Shown here piece by piece: positions 2,424-13,906 of a stretch of 14,790 nt of DNA. Both the position numbers and the translations under genes were made by a program. Each line of letters begins with the position of its first letter. Position 1 is the first letter of the stretch. The stretch comes from Candidatus Latescibacterota bacterium (GTDB taxonomy: Bacteria > JAAXHH01 > JACQVL01), in assembly GCA_016209865.1 (NCBI GenBank), contig JACQVL010000150.1:1-14790 (forward strand). The letters are read 5' to 3'. The notes under the pieces were generated by a model. The model did not search any database. It was not told the DNA's origin and saw only the letters and a program-made list of their open reading frames with translations.

Positions 2424-4406
2424 TCAGTAGACAATTTGCGAGATCGCCTTTGAGATGAGGGCGATGGCGATGGCGATCATGCCGATCAAGCCGAGCCCGG
2501 CTCCATAGCCCGCGGCCACGATGGGGACGTAGGACATCCACTTCTCCTGCCCGAACCGCTTGGCGAAATAATACCGGCCCAGGAGCGCGCCCGCAAAGGT
2601 CGGGAAGGAGTCGGTAAAACCAGCTCCCATACCGGCGACAAGGCCGTAGAACAGGATCGTCGGGGCACCGAGGAGGCTAATAAGGGCGTAGGCGCCTCCC
2701 GCGATCCCCAGACCGGCGATCACATATTTCACCTTGATCACCTCGAGCAGGAAATTACTCGCGCCGGGCATCGTGGATTTGTACCAGATGGAATTCATCG
2801 TCGCCTGGAACGGCCACATCTTCTGGATGAACGGGAATGCCGCCGATGGGATCGGACCCAGCTTCCAGATGAGGGAGTAGAAGAGGAAACTGCAGATGAA
2901 CATCAGACCCAGCGTCAGCGCGTTGAGCTTGACGTAGCTACCGAACGTCGTCTTCGTCAGTTCCAGTTGTTTAAAGGTGGAGGCCGTACCGCCCTGATCG
3001 AACATCGGGATAGGAGCGAACCAGACCGCCACCCCCTTGTACCCGGACAGATAGAACGACGCTTCCCTGACATACGGGAATGCAGCCGTCCCCGGGCCAC
3101 CCGTTATCCCGATCATCCGGGCGCTGATGTACGAGAAGATCGGTGTCCAAATGAACCCAAAGATGGCGGTGATCCAGACCGGGAACTCCGGCACGAGCAT
3201 TCGGACGAGGATGACGTAGCCGGCGGTGCTGACCCCCCAGATGAGGAGAGCGGTCCCAACCCTGATATCCCCCCGTCCCGGCGGGGGCGGCGGCATCGCG
3301 CTTTGCTCGCCGGACAGGCGTCGCTCGCGGATGCTGTGGATGAGAGCCCGGATCGTCGCGCCGATTCCGATGAGCGCAACAACGACCGAGGTCCCGATCG
3401 TGAAACTCAGCCAGAAATCGATATTGTTCGCGATCCCCGTTGGGATCATCGACATCCCCGGCGACCAGGTGTGCAGGATCCCGGCGTGGTAGAGCACCGG
3501 GTTGACGACGATGGCCGAGGCGGCAGCCGACGCGAACATCCCGACCACCACCCAGAAGGGGAGCACAAACCCGGTGAGGAGCAACCCCAGGTTCGTCCCG
3601 AGACCGACCGTGGTGGCGGGCAGGAAGGACTTCACGCTGACCGTGAAGTCGATGAAGGGGATAGGGAGGATCTGAACGGTCGTGACGAGGAAGGTGCTGG
3701 ACAGGATGGGGATGACGACGTAGACGAGTCCCCAGACGACGCCGATGACCGACCCGATGCTGAACGCCCGCCATCGCCACCCTTCTCGCTTGTTCGAAGT
3801 CTCCGCCAATGCCGTTGCGCCGCCCGCCGCGACCGGAGCCAGGGGGAACGGGAGCCGTTCCACATCGTTGGTCACCCGGAAGAGGGCATATCCCAGTGAT
3901 AGTCCATTGACGCTGCTCAGGATGGTGGTTAACGACAGCACCACAATCGACTTCAGCCAGTCCAGGTGCAGGAACGACCGCAGGGCAAGCGCCTCCGATC
4001 CTCGTTGCGGGACCACCCAGGTCGGGATGTACTCGGCGATGCCAGTCGCCGCGGGAGACTGGACAAAGTACTGGTTCCAGATCAGGGCGGCGAACGGACC
4101 GCCGGAGACGCCTGCGGCGGCAAGACCGGCCGCCGCCCAGTACAGGATCATGATCTCCTGCCGGGACATCCTGATGAATGACCGTTTGGCGATCTCCAGG
4201 AATAGGATCACCGTGACCCAGTCCGCCGCGCCCGTACTCCCCCCGGTGACCAGGCTGAGGTAGATCGAGCCGGGAAGCATCACAAACCCGACGAACAGAC
4301 ACGCCCAGACGGTCTTCATGTTGAAGCCCGGCTGGTACGCCTCTTCTTCAAGGACGACCTCCGTCGCGGCGAGATCGTCGGTCAGGCGTTCCTCTGGAAC
4401 GGCCAA
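2424..4406 (-). CDS. OPT/YSL-like oligopeptide transporter
   Basis: This 660-residue, very hydrophobic protein has many membrane segments spread along its length. The N-terminus (1-28) is acidic and probably cytoplasmic. A hydrophilic, proline-rich loop near residues 355-380 (MPPPPPGRGD) divides it into two membrane halves, as in OPT-family carriers. Recognisable family-like stretches are LWSR-type conserved loops such as MSRQEIMILYW (80-90), FRVTNDVERLPFPLAP (176-191) and ITGGPGTAAFPYV (434-446). OPT proteins import peptides or metal chelates with protons; the substrate here cannot be told. The start is TTG (4406-4404), chosen because AGGAGGTG lies 5 nt before it and no ATG occurs before residue 30. 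A TTGACA promoter sits upstream. The gene converges on the response regulator, with 25 bp between their ends and no clear terminator. The OPT assignment rests on remembered family resemblance and is less certain than the transporter call. Confidence 0.72.
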   Translation of the reverse strand: MAVPEERLTDDLAATEVVLEEEAYQPGFNMKTVWACLFVGFVMLPGSIYLSLVTGGSTGAADWVTVILFLEIAKRSFIRMSRQEIMILYWAAAGLAAAGVSGGPFAALIWNQYFVQSPAATGIAEYIPTWVVPQRGSEALALRSFLHLDWLKSIVVLSLTTILSSVNGLSLGYALFRVTNDVERLPFPLAPVAAGGATALAETSNKREGWRWRAFSIGSVIGVVWGLVYVVIPILSSTFLVTTVQILPIPFIDFTVSVKSFLPATTVGLGTNLGLLLTGFVLPFWVVVGMFASAAASAIVVNPVLYHAGILHTWSPGMSMIPTGIANNIDFWLSFTIGTSVVVALIGIGATIRALIHSIRERRLSGEQSAMPPPPPGRGDIRVGTALLIWGVSTAGYVILVRMLVPEFPVWITAIFGFIWTPIFSYISARMIGITGGPGTAAFPYVREASFYLSGYKGVAVWFAPIPMFDQGGTASTFKQLELTKTTFGSYVKLNALTLGLMFICSFLFYSLIWKLGPIPSAAFPFIQKMWPFQATMNSIWYKSTMPGASNFLLEVIKVKYVIAGLGIAGGAYALISLLGAPTILFYGLVAGMGAGFTDSFPTFAGALLGRYYFAKRFGQEKWMSYVPIVAAGYGAGLGLIGMIAIAIALISKAISQIVY

Positions 4407-4430: not shown

Positions 4431-4463
4431 GATTTTGGATTTTAGATTTTGGATTTTGGATTA
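4431..4463 (+). repeat. GATTTTG heptamer array, left arm
   Basis: Four consecutive 7-bp units (GATTTTG, GATTTTA, GATTTTG, GATTTTG) plus a partial unit. The array is AT-rich in a GC-rich genome. It lies between the -10 box and the SD of the OPT-like gene, so it would form part of that gene's 5' leader, transcribed as the complement. Bases 4431-4455 are perfectly repeated in inverted orientation at 4572-4596. Confidence 0.9.
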
Positions 4464-4570: not shown

Positions 4571-4598
4571 CAATCCAAAATCTAAAATCCAAAATCCA
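4571..4598 (-). repeat. GATTTTG heptamer array, right arm, overlapping the recD2 3' end
   Basis: On the minus strand this reads GATTTTG GATTTTA GATTTTG GATTG. It is the inverted partner of the array at 4431-4463; 25 bases match perfectly (4572-4596 against 4431-4455) across a 116-bp interior. The array encodes the last four residues (DFGF) and the TAG stop of RecD2. Confidence 0.9.
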
Positions 4599-6777
4599 TC
4601 TCCTCTACCTTCTGTAACCCTTCCCGCAGTCCCGTATACCGGGCGGTCACGTCATTATTCTTGACCGCGATGGCGACGGCTTTCTTCGTCCCGACGAGGA
4701 CGACGAGCGATTTCGCCCGTGTGATGGCGGTGTACAGCAGGTTCCGCTGGAGCATCAGGTAGTGCGACGTGAACAGCGGGAGGACGATGGCCGGGTACTC
4801 CGACCCCTGGCTCTTGTGGACGCTGATCGCGTACGCCAGGACGACCTCGTCTAATTCGCTGAAGTCATACCCGACCGGCTCGTTGAACGTCACCTCCACC
4901 GTCTGGGATTCCAGGTCGATCCGGGTCACCCGGCCGATGTCTCCGTTGAACACCATCTTGTCGTAATTGTTCCGGGTCTGCATCACCTTATCCCCAACGC
5001 GCAGCTCCCGGTCGCCCCGCTTCAGGCTGGCGCCGTCCGGGTTGAGCGTCTCCTGCAGCACCCGGTTGAGCTGGTCGACCCCGATCTCCCCTCGGTACAT
5101 CGGGGTGAGCACCTGGATGTCATCGATCGGGTCGTAGCCGTACCGGCCGGGAAGCCGGCGGGCGCACAGCTCCTGGATCGTCTCCGCCGCGCTCGCCGGG
5201 TCGTCCTCGCCGATGAAGAAGAAATCCCCCTCTTTCCGGTTGTGGAGCCGGGGGAATTCCCCTTGGTTCACCCGGTGGGCGTTCATCACGATGTCGCTCT
5301 CCTGCGCCTGCCGGAAAATCTCGTGCAGATGGACGACCGGGACCGCGCCGGAGGCGATCACGTCCCGCAGGACGTTCCCCGCCCCGACCGACGGCAACTG
5401 GTCGGCGTCCCCGACCATGACCAGGCGGGCGGATGACGGAACCGCCCGGAGCAGGGCGTTCATCAGCACTGTGTCGACCATCGACACCTCGTCGAGGATG
5501 ACCGCGTCCGCGTCGAGCGGGTCTTCCGTCCCCTTCTTGAACTGGGTCGCGCCGGGGTTGAATTCGAGGAGCCGGTGGATGGTCTTCGCCTCCGCCCCGG
5601 TGACCTCCGACAGCCGCTTCGCCGCCCGTCCGGTCGGGGCGGCTAAGACGACCCGCTGGCTGAGTTGCTGGAAGAGGGCTAACATCCCGCGCACGCACGT
5701 CGTCTTCCCGGTGCCCGGCCCGCCGGTCAGGACGAGGATGCCGTCCGTGAAGACGGTCAGGATGGCTAAGCGTTGCTGGTCGTTGAACTGGATACCGTGC
5801 GTCTGCTGAACCCGGTCGATCATCCGTGTCACGGCATCCGGGACGAACGCCTGCCTCGGGCTGCGCAGCAGCCGGGCGAGATGCCGGGCGATGCCCACCT
5901 CGGCGTAGTAGAACGGGGCGAGGTACACCCGGTCGCCGTCGACGATCGCCTCGCCCGTCCCGACTAACGTCTGGACGGCCGGCGGGATGATCGATGCTTC
6001 GACGTGCAAGAACTTCGCGCTCTCGGCGGCGAGCATCTCCTGCGGGACGAACACATGCCCGTCGTCGGCGCACTGGTTGAGCACGTACTGGATGCCGGCC
6101 GCGATCCGGGACGGGGCAGCCGGGTCGACGCCGAGGTTCTGCGCGATCTTGTCGGCGGTGATGAACCCGATCCCCCAGATGTCCGACGCTAAGCGGTACG
6201 GGTTCTCCGTCACCTTCTGGATAGCCTCATTCCCATACATCTTGTAGATCTTGACCGCGTACGTCGTGCTCACGTTGTGGGCGAGGAGGAACTGCATGAC
6301 CTCCTGGATGTGTTTCTGATCCTCCCAGCCTTTCTTGATGAGGTTGACCGTCTTCTGTGCAATGCCCTTGATCTCTAAGAGTCGCTCCGGCTCGGCGTCG
6401 ATCACCTCGAACGTGCGCTCCCCGAACCGGTCGACGATCAGCCCGGCTTTGACCGGGCCGATCCCCTTGATCAGGCCAGAGCCTAAGTACTTGCGGATGC
6501 CCTCGACGGTCGCGGGGAACAGGGTCTTGTACTCGATGATCTTGAACTGCTTCCCGTACTGGGAGTGGGTCACCCAGTAGCCATGGACCTCCACCCGCTC
6601 GCCCGGGACGAGGGCGGCCAGGTTCCCGACGACCACCCACAGTCCGTCGGCCAGGGTCGACGGCGGGCGTTCGGTCGTCTGGCAGTGCCGGAGTTCCGGC
6701 CGGAGCCTGGCGACGGTGTACCCGGTGTCCTCGTTTTGATAGGTCACCCGTTCGATCGTGCCGATGAGAGTGTCCAT
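4582..6777 (-). CDS. recD2: RecD2-type ATP-dependent DNA helicase
   Basis: This 731-residue superfamily 1B helicase is expected to unwind DNA 5' to 3' in repair or recombination without RecB and RecC, as known for the RecD2 family. Visible parts in order are an N-terminal OB-like region (1-90), helix-hairpin-helix segments near 99-119, 133-151 and 191-216 (GSGLIKGIGPVKAG, LLEIKGIAQKTV, DIWGIGFITADKIA), Walker A GGPGTGKTT (352-360), Walker B ILDEVSMVD (427-435), motif III VGDADQLPSVGAG (455-467), motif V YAISVHKSQGSE (649-660) and motif VI YTAITRAK (682-689). All core motifs look intact and the length is normal. The ATG abuts the ndk stop codon with only a weak GAGGG nearby, suggesting translational coupling with ndk. 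The last residues and stop come from a GATTTTG heptamer repeat. Confidence 0.96.
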   Translation of the reverse strand: MDTLIGTIERVTYQNEDTGYTVARLRPELRHCQTTERPPSTLADGLWVVVGNLAALVPGERVEVHGYWVTHSQYGKQFKIIEYKTLFPATVEGIRKYLGSGLIKGIGPVKAGLIVDRFGERTFEVIDAEPERLLEIKGIAQKTVNLIKKGWEDQKHIQEVMQFLLAHNVSTTYAVKIYKMYGNEAIQKVTENPYRLASDIWGIGFITADKIAQNLGVDPAAPSRIAAGIQYVLNQCADDGHVFVPQEMLAAESAKFLHVEASIIPPAVQTLVGTGEAIVDGDRVYLAPFYYAEVGIARHLARLLRSPRQAFVPDAVTRMIDRVQQTHGIQFNDQQRLAILTVFTDGILVLTGGPGTGKTTCVRGMLALFQQLSQRVVLAAPTGRAAKRLSEVTGAEAKTIHRLLEFNPGATQFKKGTEDPLDADAVILDEVSMVDTVLMNALLRAVPSSARLVMVGDADQLPSVGAGNVLRDVIASGAVPVVHLHEIFRQAQESDIVMNAHRVNQGEFPRLHNRKEGDFFFIGEDDPASAAETIQELCARRLPGRYGYDPIDDIQVLTPMYRGEIGVDQLNRVLQETLNPDGASLKRGDRELRVGDKVMQTRNNYDKMVFNGDIGRVTRIDLESQTVEVTFNEPVGYDFSELDEVVLAYAISVHKSQGSEYPAIVLPLFTSHYLMLQRNLLYTAITRAKSLVVLVGTKKAVAIAVKNNDVTARYTGLREGLQKVEEMDFGF

Positions 6778-7242
6778 TTACCCTCGTTCGTCACTCGAAT
6801 AGATCACCGCATCCGTCACGCTCTCATAGGAAAATAGCTCGTCAGGCCGGAAGAAGCGGGTGATTTCTTCCTGGGCGGTCTGGGAGGAGTCGGAGGCATG
6901 GACGAGGTTGCACTGGACGCTCATCCCCAGGTCGCCGCGAACCGTTCCCGGGTCGGCTTTCCGGGAATTGGTCGTCCCGCAGAGCGTCCGGACGGTCTCC
7001 ACGCACTCCAGCCCTTCCCAGCACAGGGCCAGGACGGGAGCGCTGCGCATGAACTGTTTGATGCGGGGAAAGAACGGCCGGTCGAGCAGGTGACGGTAAT
7101 GGTCGTCCAGCGTTGCTTCATCCAGGTTCATCATTTTCATCCCGATGAGTTTCAACCCTTTGCGTTCGAGCCGGGTGATGATGTCGCCGATCAGGCCGCG
7201 CTGAATCGCATCCGGTTTAATGAGCACGAGCGTTCGTTCCAA
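6778..7242 (-). CDS. ndk: Nucleoside diphosphate kinase
   Basis: This 154-residue enzyme transfers the gamma phosphate between nucleoside triphosphates and diphosphates through a phosphohistidine. The family signature is clear: RTLVLIKPDAIQRGLIG at the N-terminus, the FMRSAPVLALCWEG region, GTTNSRKADPGTVRGD (nucleotide binding) and the active-site His in NLVHASDS. Length is at the upper end of the bacterial range. The start is a TTG at 7242-7240, chosen because AAGGAGGG lies a few bases before it and the family begins with MERTL. A longer in-frame ATG start at 7323 would add 27 residues translated from the heptamer repeat, which is implausible. The TAA stop directly abuts the recD2 ATG, so the two genes form an operon. 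A TTGACA promoter and a G-rich leader lie upstream. Confidence 0.96.
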   Translation of the reverse strand: MERTLVLIKPDAIQRGLIGDIITRLERKGLKLIGMKMMNLDEATLDDHYRHLLDRPFFPRIKQFMRSAPVLALCWEGLECVETVRTLCGTTNSRKADPGTVRGDLGMSVQCNLVHASDSSQTAQEEITRFFRPDELFSYESVTDAVIYSSDERG

Positions 7243-7272
7243 CGGCGTCTCCCTCCTTGCGTTAGAATATTT

Positions 7273-7309
7273 CTGACCCCTGACCCCTGACCCCTGACCC
7301 CTGACCCCT
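7273..7309 (-). repeat. CTGACCC heptamer array in the ndk leader; G-quadruplex candidate
   Basis: Five perfect tandem copies of CTGACCC plus two bases on the + strand. On the minus strand, which is the ndk sense strand, this gives five GGGG tracts separated by TCA. It begins two bases after the -10 hexamer of the ndk promoter and ends about 30 bases before the TTG start. It therefore lies at the start of the ndk transcript, upstream of the SD. Confidence 0.92.
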
Positions 7310-7310
7310 A

Positions 7311-7339
7311 AATGTAGCCTCACGGACGCGGGCTGTCAA
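7311..7339 (-). promoter_or_regulatory. Sigma70-type promoter for ndk-recD2
   Basis: On the minus strand, TTGACA (7339-7334), a 17-bp spacer and TACATT (7316-7311, four of six matches). Transcription would begin near 7304, inside the CTGACCC array. The perfect -35 and ideal spacing support the call; the -10 is mediocre. Confidence 0.68.
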
Positions 7340-7380
7340 TCTTTTCTCACCTGAAGCAGCCTTCTTCTGTAAAAATGGGG

Positions 7381-7409
7381 TAGACAAATTGAAGGGAATG
7401 TAGTATTAT
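7381..7409 (+). promoter_or_regulatory. Sigma70-type promoter for the purF operon
   Basis: TAGACA (7381-7386), a 17-bp spacer and TATTAT (7404-7409), each five of six matches to consensus. The predicted transcript start is near 7416, leaving about 73 nt of leader before purF. It is divergent from the ndk promoter, with about 40 bp between the two -35 boxes. No PurR-like box or known riboswitch was recognised in the leader. Confidence 0.7.
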
Positions 7410-7488
7410 ACAACAAAATCCGTTCTCATGACCGACCACCGACCCCCGTTACCACTCCATAGCGAGACATCGCACGGGAGAGACGCCT

Positions 7489-8901
7489 ATGTGGGAGGAT
7501 GACCAGGTCCACGAGGAGTGTGGGTTATTCGGCATCTTTCGTCACCCGCAGGCGGTGGAGAAGACGTTCCTCGGTCTGTACACCCTGCAGCATCGAGGAC
7601 AGGAGAGTTCCGGGATCGCCGTCTCCGACGGGCAGATGATCGCCGTCCATAAAGCCATGGGGCTGGTTGCTGAGGCGTACCAGAACGGGCTGAAGCTCTC
7701 CGACCTGCGCGGGCATCTGGCGATCGGCCACAACCGGTACTCGACGACCGGTTCTTCCTCCTTGCAGAACGCCCAGCCGATCCTGATCAAGTACAAGAAA
7801 GGGCAACTGGCCGCCGCGCACAACGGCAACCTCATCAACGCCGCCACCCTGCGCGAGGCGATGGAGGAGGACGGGTCGATCTTCCAGTCGACGACCGACA
7901 GTGAGATCGTCGTACACCTCGTGGCGAAATCCTCCGAGCCGACGATTCCTGACATGATCGCGGACGCCCTGCGCCGGGTGGAAGGGGCGTACTGTTTCCT
8001 GTTCATGACCGAGCAGGAACTCATCGGCGTCCGCGACCCGCACGGGTTCCGGCCGCTCTGCATCGGCCGGCTGGGCGACAGTTATATCCTGGCGTCCGAG
8101 ACCTGCGCGCTCGATATCGTCGATGCTACGTACGTCCGGGATGTTGAACCGGGCGAGATCGTGGTGATCGATGACGACGGGTTAACGTCCTACCGGCCGT
8201 TTCCCCCTGCTCCCCCTGCCTTCTGTATCTTCGAGTACATCTACTTTGCCCGGCCGGACAGCAAAGTCTTCGGGGAGAACGTCGATAAGCCGCGTCGGCG
8301 GTTTGGCCGGCAGCTCGCCCGCGAGCATCCGTGCGACGCGGATATCGTCATCTCCGTCCCGGACTCCGCGAACACCGCGGCCCTCGGCTACGCTGAAGAA
8401 TCGGGCATCCGGTTTGAGATCGGCCTCATCCGGAATCATTACATCGGACGGACGTTCATCGACCCGAGCCAGACGATGCGGGATTTCAAAGTGCGAGTGA
8501 AGTACAACCCGGTCAAGGGCGTCCTGAAGGGACGGCGGGTCGTGATGGTGGAGGATTCGATCGTCCGGGGGACGACCTTGAAGCAGCTCGTCCGGATGGT
8601 GCGACAGAGCGGCGCGAAGGAAGTTCATGTGCGCGTGAGTTGTCCCCCGATCCGGCACCCGTGCTACTACGGGATCGACATGCAGACGCGGGCGGAGTTG
8701 ATCGCCTCCCGGCCGGCGACCGAGCAGGTCCGCGAGTTCTTAGGGGCGGACAGCCTCGGCTACCTCTCCATCGAGGGCATGCTGAGCGTCGCTCCGTCGC
8801 CGGGCGATCAGTACTGTACCGCGTGCTTCAGCGGCTGGTACCCGATCGAACCGAAGGAGCCGGTCAACAAGCTGCTCCTGGAGTTGAAGTGCAGCGGGTA
8901 A
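7489..8901 (+). CDS. purF: Amidophosphoribosyltransferase, Fe-S/propeptide type
   Basis: This 470-residue enzyme catalyses the first committed step of purine synthesis, PRPP plus glutamine to phosphoribosylamine. A ten-residue propeptide (MWEDDQVHEE) precedes the glutaminase nucleophile Cys11 in ECGLFGIF and must be removed to free it, as in the Bacillus subtilis enzyme. Further signatures are LQHRGQESSGIA (33-44), GHNRYSTTG (80-88), HNGNL (111-115) and the PRPP loop VVMVEDSIVRGTT (351-363). Cys246 (AFCIFEY), Cys392 (HPCYYG), Cys443 and Cys446 (YCTACF) fit the four ligands of the B. subtilis-type [4Fe-4S] cluster. The ATG is preceded by GGGAGAG at moderate distance. It heads a tight + strand run, and the next gene overlaps its end. 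A small repeat-encoded PPAPPA segment lies just before Cys246. Confidence 0.97.
   Translation: MWEDDQVHEECGLFGIFRHPQAVEKTFLGLYTLQHRGQESSGIAVSDGQMIAVHKAMGLVAEAYQNGLKLSDLRGHLAIGHNRYSTTGSSSLQNAQPILIKYKKGQLAAAHNGNLINAATLREAMEEDGSIFQSTTDSEIVVHLVAKSSEPTIPDMIADALRRVEGAYCFLFMTEQELIGVRDPHGFRPLCIGRLGDSYILASETCALDIVDATYVRDVEPGEIVVIDDDGLTSYRPFPPAPPAFCIFEYIYFARPDSKVFGENVDKPRRRFGRQLAREHPCDADIVISVPDSANTAALGYAEESGIRFEIGLIRNHYIGRTFIDPSQTMRDFKVRVKYNPVKGVLKGRRVVMVEDSIVRGTTLKQLVRMVRQSGAKEVHVRVSCPPIRHPCYYGIDMQTRAELIASRPATEQVREFLGADSLGYLSIEGMLSVAPSPGDQYCTACFSGWYPIEPKEPVNKLLLELKCSG
8202..8219 (+). repeat. Two tandem copies of a 9-bp unit inside purF
   Basis: TCCCCCTGC occurs twice in succession, in frame, encoding Pro-Pro-Ala twice just before the Cys246 cluster ligand of PurF. 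It resembles a small repeat expansion tolerated in a surface linker. Confidence 0.7.
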
Positions 8902-9830: not shown

Positions 9831-10019
9831 ATGATTTCTATTAAGCCTGATACCTGCGATTTTTGTGGGACTTGCGTCGCCGTCTGCCACGTCGATGCGA
9901 TCGAACTCCTGGAGTCCTCCATCACCATCGACCAGGAGACGTGTGATGACTGCTGCAAATGCGTGTACGTCTGCCCGTTGCTCGTCCTGTCGTCGGATCT
10001 ACGAAGTCCGTCCCACTAA
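9831..10019 (+). CDS. Small 2[4Fe-4S] ferredoxin
   Basis: A 62-residue protein with two CxxCxxCxxxC motifs: Cys9, 12, 15, 19 and Cys38, 41, 44, 48. An extra Cys42 lies in the second motif. The last cysteine of the second motif is followed by Pro as usual, but that of the first is followed by His. Bacterial-type ferredoxins of this size carry low-potential electrons in the cytoplasm. It starts three bases after the prenyltransferase stop and ends 24 bases before the peptidase gene, so it is almost surely co-transcribed with both. Its redox partner is not in the window; an electron supply to prenyl-lipid reduction is a guess from the neighbour. Confidence 0.9.
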   Translation: MISIKPDTCDFCGTCVAVCHVDAIELLESSITIDQETCDDCCKCVYVCPLLVLSSDLRSPSH

Positions 10020-13882: not shown

Positions 13883-13888
13883 AGCGCC

Positions 13889-13906
13889 GGGATTCGGGGT
13901 TCGGGA
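13889..13906 (+). repeat. Short GGGRTTC heptamer pair
   Basis: GGGATTC and GGGGTTC follow each other, then GGGA, in the 30-bp gap between the convergent kinase-like and antiporter genes. Two imperfect copies of a 7-bp unit are weak evidence alone, but the period matches the other intergenic arrays of the window. Confidence 0.4.

Follow-up and report, generated by a model that had tools for sequence, protein, structure and literature searches.

The window, the whole 14,790-nt stretch of DNA analysed here, carries purF (7489-8901, plus strand; assigned from Pfam and synteny) as the divergent neighbour of ndk (6778-7242, minus strand), a nucleoside diphosphate kinase gene (PF00334, the Pfam NDK family, E = 2e-50) with a TTG start at 7242. 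The recD2 helicase gene (4582-6777, minus strand; PF14490, HHH_RecD2, and other domains) lies directly behind ndk. The ndk stop ends at 6778 and the recD2 ATG is at 6777, which supports the operon arrangement that an earlier, sequence-only reading had proposed, and the synteny of purF with ndk-recD2 is kept in relatives across the order. Upstream of ndk, on the minus strand, are a -35 hexamer TTGACA (7334-7339), a 17-nt spacer, a -10 hexamer TACATT (7311-7316), a heptamer array (7273-7309) and a Shine-Dalgarno (SD) sequence, AAGGAGGG (7251-7258), with AAGGAG-type counterparts in relatives. Facing purF on the plus strand are a promoter-like site, TAGACA-17-TATTAT (7381-7409), for which a similar site was recognized by eye in relatives, and, in the purF leader, a degenerate heptamer array of ACCGACC type (about 7430-7447), also read by eye, whose type belongs to a family found elsewhere in the genome.

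The ndk array is a period-7 repeat of 5.3 copies with a 100% match (Tandem Repeats Finder), its unit AGGGGTC/GGGGTCA running without a mismatch; read on the minus strand it is AGGGGTCAGGGGTCAGGGGTCAGGGGTCAGGGGTCAG, and a genome-wide search marked it as the longest of its family. The geometry described in the sequence-only reading is borne out: five GGGG tracts with 3-nt TCA loops can be read directly on the ndk sense strand, the first tract starts two bases past the -10 box (7316-7311), and 14 nt separate the end of the array from the SD. The last G tract lies 18 nt upstream of the SD and 35 nt upstream of the start codon. A G4Hunter score of 2.05 and a ViennaRNA energy of -32.2 kcal/mol with quadruplex energies, versus -4.8 kcal/mol without, suggest that the array can fold as a quadruplex in RNA or in the displaced non-template strand, with a predicted stability well above that of any hairpin.

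The predicted ndk promoter is real, given that its hexamers and exact 17-nt spacer recur in 16/16 genomes of the order (TTGACA in 15 and TTGACT in one; TACATT in 14, with TAAATT and TTCCTT in the others; spacer of 17 nt in all), a conservation that supports it far better than a consensus match alone. This places the array at the start of the ndk transcript. Specifically, transcription is predicted from the -10 box to begin near 7305-7302, so that four of the GGGG tracts would be transcribed in full; the predicted transcript would have at least four G tracts between promoter and ribosome-binding site (RBS), as expected of a regulatory 5'-UTR RNA quadruplex. A search for a second promoter downstream of the array found no promoter-like site, and Rfam covariance models run against 7200-7520 gave no match at E values up to 1. 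An N-terminal ndk extension from a GTG at 7323 through the array (GVRGQGSGVRGQ) was rejected, both because this GTG lies inside or before the -10 region's transcript start and because homology starts at the TTG and all frames of the G strand are open.

The comparison set comprised 16 genomes (our own and 15 others, the closest of which belong to other families), with ndk leaders of 49-100 nt. Conservation of GGGG tracts in relatives, which the sequence-only reading had named as a check on quadruplex function, did not emerge: the tracts are absent from the ndk leaders of all 15 other genomes, and no GGGGTCA array sought there reaches even 2.6 copies. Other repeats occupy the same place in some of them. 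The ndk leader of genome G011 (L249) holds ATTTTGG heptamers, and those of four genomes of genus g3 (L254, L255, L256, and L260) hold at least two copies, varying in number, of a 12-mer of GCACGAGGCTTT type that begins at the first base past the -10 box. Nine ndk leaders have no repeat, with leaders as short as 49-53 nt. The arrays of the window and of G011 occupy the leaders and spare the promoter hexamers; G011 also carries arrays of different units in both leaders of its divergent spacer, CACCCTT type for purF and ATTTTGG for ndk. In leader comparisons that, like the polarity count below, were made after the data had been seen, the tandem-repeat score was positive for 6/16 ndk leaders versus 6/58, 3/67, and 3/28 sampled leaders of three relatives. 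Because the g3 relatives are not independent, this excess is only suggestive of a repeat-prone ndk leader stretch across the order. In our own genome, 89 of 371 leaders score as tandem repeats.

Within this genome, the ndk array is one of hundreds of heptamer arrays at gene edges. Contigs totalling 1.01 Mb that were selected without regard to arrays yielded 135 period-7 arrays of at least 17 nt, versus 10 in sequence simulated under a 4th-order Markov model, and period 7 alone stands out, with periods 6 and 8 contributing only 23 and 9 arrays in the same 1.01 Mb. These period-7 arrays comprise at least 12 dispersed units, most of them unable to form a quadruplex. The largest families, counted over 1.21 Mb, are ACGAGTG (36), GGGGTCA (28), GGATTTT (24), ACCACCG (21), AAGGACG (12), and AAGTGAC (8), where deliberate selection of its contigs inflates the GGGGTCA count; in unselected contigs, GGGGTCA falls to 10, compared with 27, 21, 18, 9, and 6 for the other five families. 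Genome-wide equal-length searches, in which counts were derived from overlapping matches, yielded 17 GGGGTCA, 18 GGATTTT, and 57 ACGAGTG arrays, of which 10, 10, and 14, respectively, reach at least 25 nt; the ndk array is the sole GGGGTCA array with three overlapping matches and is hence the longest. As GGATTTT, despite being AT-rich, shows the profile seen for GGGGTCA, the preference for about 4.5 units need not reflect quadruplex formation here. Array lengths in this 356-contig assembly may be biased because a contig end is no more than 200 nt away from 4/17 GGGGTCA arrays, versus 0.65 expected, and assembly breaks may hide long arrays.

Several further repeats accompany these families. The repeat finder placed a GATTTTG array, not quadruplex-like, at the edge of the gene at 2424-4406 (4431-4462, plus strand) and an inverted array of AATCCAA type at the recD2 stop edge (4572-4598, minus strand), so that the two arrays stand inverted at the two edges of a single spacer. 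Elsewhere in the window are a GGGCAGT array (1125-1153), whose spacer also holds inverted ACTGCCC pieces, and a CGGGATT/CGGGGTT array (13888-13906). Palindromic dispersed repeats of ATTCCCGCGAAAGCGGGAAT type adjoin heptamer arrays at L031, L017, L082, and other loci, and a G-rich motif, GGGGAAGGGGGCTGGGGGCGTAGGGG, common to L029, L039, L096, and L102 near contig ends, may mark one end of a further dispersed element. In a spacer where the gene caller made no call lies a 62-aa open reading frame (9831-10019, plus strand) with two CxxCxxC-like clusters, probably of ferredoxin type.

The arrays share a marked strand polarity, which we examined at 121 loci of our own genome (L011-L130 and the window) using gene calls from a custom hexamer-based caller with the arrays masked beforehand. 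The nearer gene edge lies on the 5' side of the G-rich strand for 135 arrays versus 24 with the opposite arrangement (p about 6e-20), such that the G-rich strand reads outward from the nearer edge, for stop edges and start edges alike. The lean persists when GGGGTCA is excluded (115:22) and when both distances are above zero (96:17), appears in the few cases in convergent spacers (6:1), and is common to quadruplex and non-quadruplex families, including all the large ones. Adjacent arrays form 14 inward-facing pairs and no outward-facing pair, and half of the inward-facing pairs have different units at their two ends. Only 11/159 arrays fall in divergent spacers, although these account for 15% of all spacers and 27% of all bases in spacers. 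The ndk array is thus atypical twice: it lies in a divergent spacer, 179 nt from purF and 30 nt from ndk, and it is one of the two exceptions among the 22 members of a family with a polarity of 20:2. Avoidance of SD-like repeats near starts was considered as a source of the polarity; it could fit the start edges, but not obviously the stop edges.

GGGGTCA arrays are also widespread among bacteria: named genomes of many phyla contain at least 116 stretches with arrays of at least 3.6 copies (taxa include Acidobacteriota, Planctomycetota, Chloroflexota, Thiobacillus, Gemmatimonadota, Verrucomicrobiota, and Actinomycetota, among others). The loci around them contain 108 other period-7 arrays versus at most 28 of any other period, and the same polarity recurs there under gene calling that is cruder for these phyla (53:20 for GGGGTCA and 60:26 for other heptamers).

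Taken together, we think it probable that the ndk array is a dispersed heptanucleotide tandem repeat that underwent a lineage-specific expansion in a permissive leader and that, although quadruplex-capable, has at most a modest effect. In the proposed scheme, the repeat would have expanded in this lineage between the conserved -10 box and the SD, in a stretch that tolerates repeats, and would have arisen and continued to vary by slippage or unequal exchange. It would be transcribed from about 7305-7302 and could then fold in the RNA or the non-template strand. At 35 nt from the start codon, its 3' edge lies outside the expected footprint of the initiating 30S subunit, so any effect on ndk-recD2 is probably modest, as likely a mild boost as a repression, and probably not under selection. 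The conservation evidence behind this reading comes from genomes of other families of the order. A special regulatory role for ndk is unlikely, because the array is one of hundreds that mostly cannot fold and because its G runs are not conserved. More broadly, the case shows that a genome-wide heptamer expansion can, as a side effect, place a textbook quadruplex motif at a conserved promoter. The non-G families constitute a built-in control within the same genome and, because they match the G-rich family in number, length, and position, these features are no evidence for quadruplex function.

The main competitor is the regulatory quadruplex proposed by the sequence-only reading: folding of the array in the nascent RNA or in the non-template strand would adjust ndk-recD2 expression through promoter escape or ribosome access. 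Its attractions are the five GGGG tracts, their strong predicted stability, and their sense-strand placement after a conserved promoter and before the SD, along with E. coli reporters in which translation rose with a 5'-UTR quadruplex encoded in the non-template strand (Lee 2024, PMC11087576). Further, several observations sit poorly with a neutral repeat, in that the ndk copy is the family's longest, lies in transcript sense at a promoter, and departs from the family's positional habit; an individually selected copy could have just these traits. However, the proposal did not gain support: the ndk leaders of the 15 relatives contain no GGGG tracts of this kind, like arrays stand at unrelated genes, non-quadruplex families are alike in number, length, and position, and no regulatory role was found for a comparable G-rich heptamer repeat (Rehm 2015, PMC4692102). 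We therefore judge a regulatory quadruplex unlikely, while still the most credible of the alternatives. That eukaryotic nucleoside diphosphate kinases can bind quadruplexes (PMC6572678) makes ndk autoregulation conceivable, and nothing in this analysis backs it.

A leader spacer, in which repeats of any sequence downstream of the -10 box and upstream of the SD would do no more than add length to the leader (e.g., as a standby site), would accommodate the different repeats at the same place in our genome, G011, and the four g3 genomes, but the nine repeat-free leaders, some of only 49-53 nt, indicate that extra length is not needed, and we hold this explanation to be improbable. The polarity itself has no explanation from quadruplexes and could be examined in other genomes. 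One strand-specific process might make all heptamer arrays, extending them away from gene edges in the 3' direction of the G-rich strand, like the telomeric capping of broken ends. The 135:24 polarity, the 14:0 excess of inward pairs, and the cases in which the two ends of one spacer carry different units agree with such a process, under which quadruplex ability would be incidental and the ndk array would either depart from the rule or have changed later; we nonetheless give it a very small probability. Inward pairs, together with two GGATTTT spacers (L046 and L063) that have related inner sequence, also recall a small mobile element with heptamer arrays as its inverted terminal parts. Given that half of the inward pairs have unlike end units, that the flanks of GGGGTCA arrays are not alike, and that the ndk array has no partner of its own unit, the mobile-element reading is largely refuted for the ndk array and is slightly less plausible again. 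The least credible possibility, to which we attach almost no weight, is an assembly or binning artefact, whether a misjoin or a wrong copy number. The excess of GGGGTCA arrays near contig ends would be in keeping with it, but the ndk array lies mid-contig, synteny and promoter are conserved across it, and its 37 nt are shorter than ordinary reads.

Among known systems, the closest to the ndk array's family are the GGGAATC and GGGGA(C/T)T repeats of Xanthomonas and Nostoc (Rehm 2015, PMC4692102), which are likewise G-rich, dispersed, mostly intergenic heptamers capable of forming quadruplexes. The 17 GGGGTCA arrays lie at gene edges or in spacers, and both systems have the nearer gene on the 5' side of the G-rich strand and are rare between divergent genes. 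Beside the preference for four units that was tied to quadruplex formation in the Rehm-type repeats can be set the 10/17 GGGGTCA arrays and the 10/18 GGATTTT arrays that reach 25 nt here. The ndk copy, by contrast, lies in a divergent spacer in another phylum, nearer to its 3'-side gene, and its unit GGGGTCA does not match the consensus GGGNATC or GGGGA(C/T)T. While that strand habit was reported for one G-rich repeat in three genomes, here the same positional habits extend to units unable to form quadruplexes. The perfect or near-perfect tandem 7-mers, their dispersal, and the marked period-7 excess also resemble the cyanobacterial short tandemly repeated repetitive (STRR) sequences and the long simple-sequence repeats (LSSR) of Mrazek 2007 (the latter via PMC4679880), with their dominant heptamer period and several dispersed units, albeit in different organisms and as a likeness in form. 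The TAACTGA direct repeats of Beggiatoaceae, Cyanobacteria, and Bacteroidetes (MacGregor 2015, PMC4679880) similarly lie between genes as heptamer arrays in scattered phyla, frequently immediately upstream of a start codon, where a translation role was suggested, but they involve one AT-richer unit whose related heptamers are rarely repeated, whereas our genome has many units. The GGGACCG elements of Geobacter metallireducens (49 sites; PMC2700814) are tandem heptamers dispersed in and between genes as here, and differ in their unit, in being also intragenic, and in having a regulatory role that is only proposed. Finally, the Lee 2024 constructs (PMC11087576) resemble the ndk leader in that G tracts lie downstream of the promoter and upstream of the RBS on the non-template strand; they are engineered, with the quadruplex 44 nt past the promoter and 43 nt before the RBS, versus 2 and 18 nt for the ndk array. 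That paper also cites inhibition when a quadruplex is close to the SD; the geometry of the ndk array is nearer to the translation-raising case than to the SD-proximal one.
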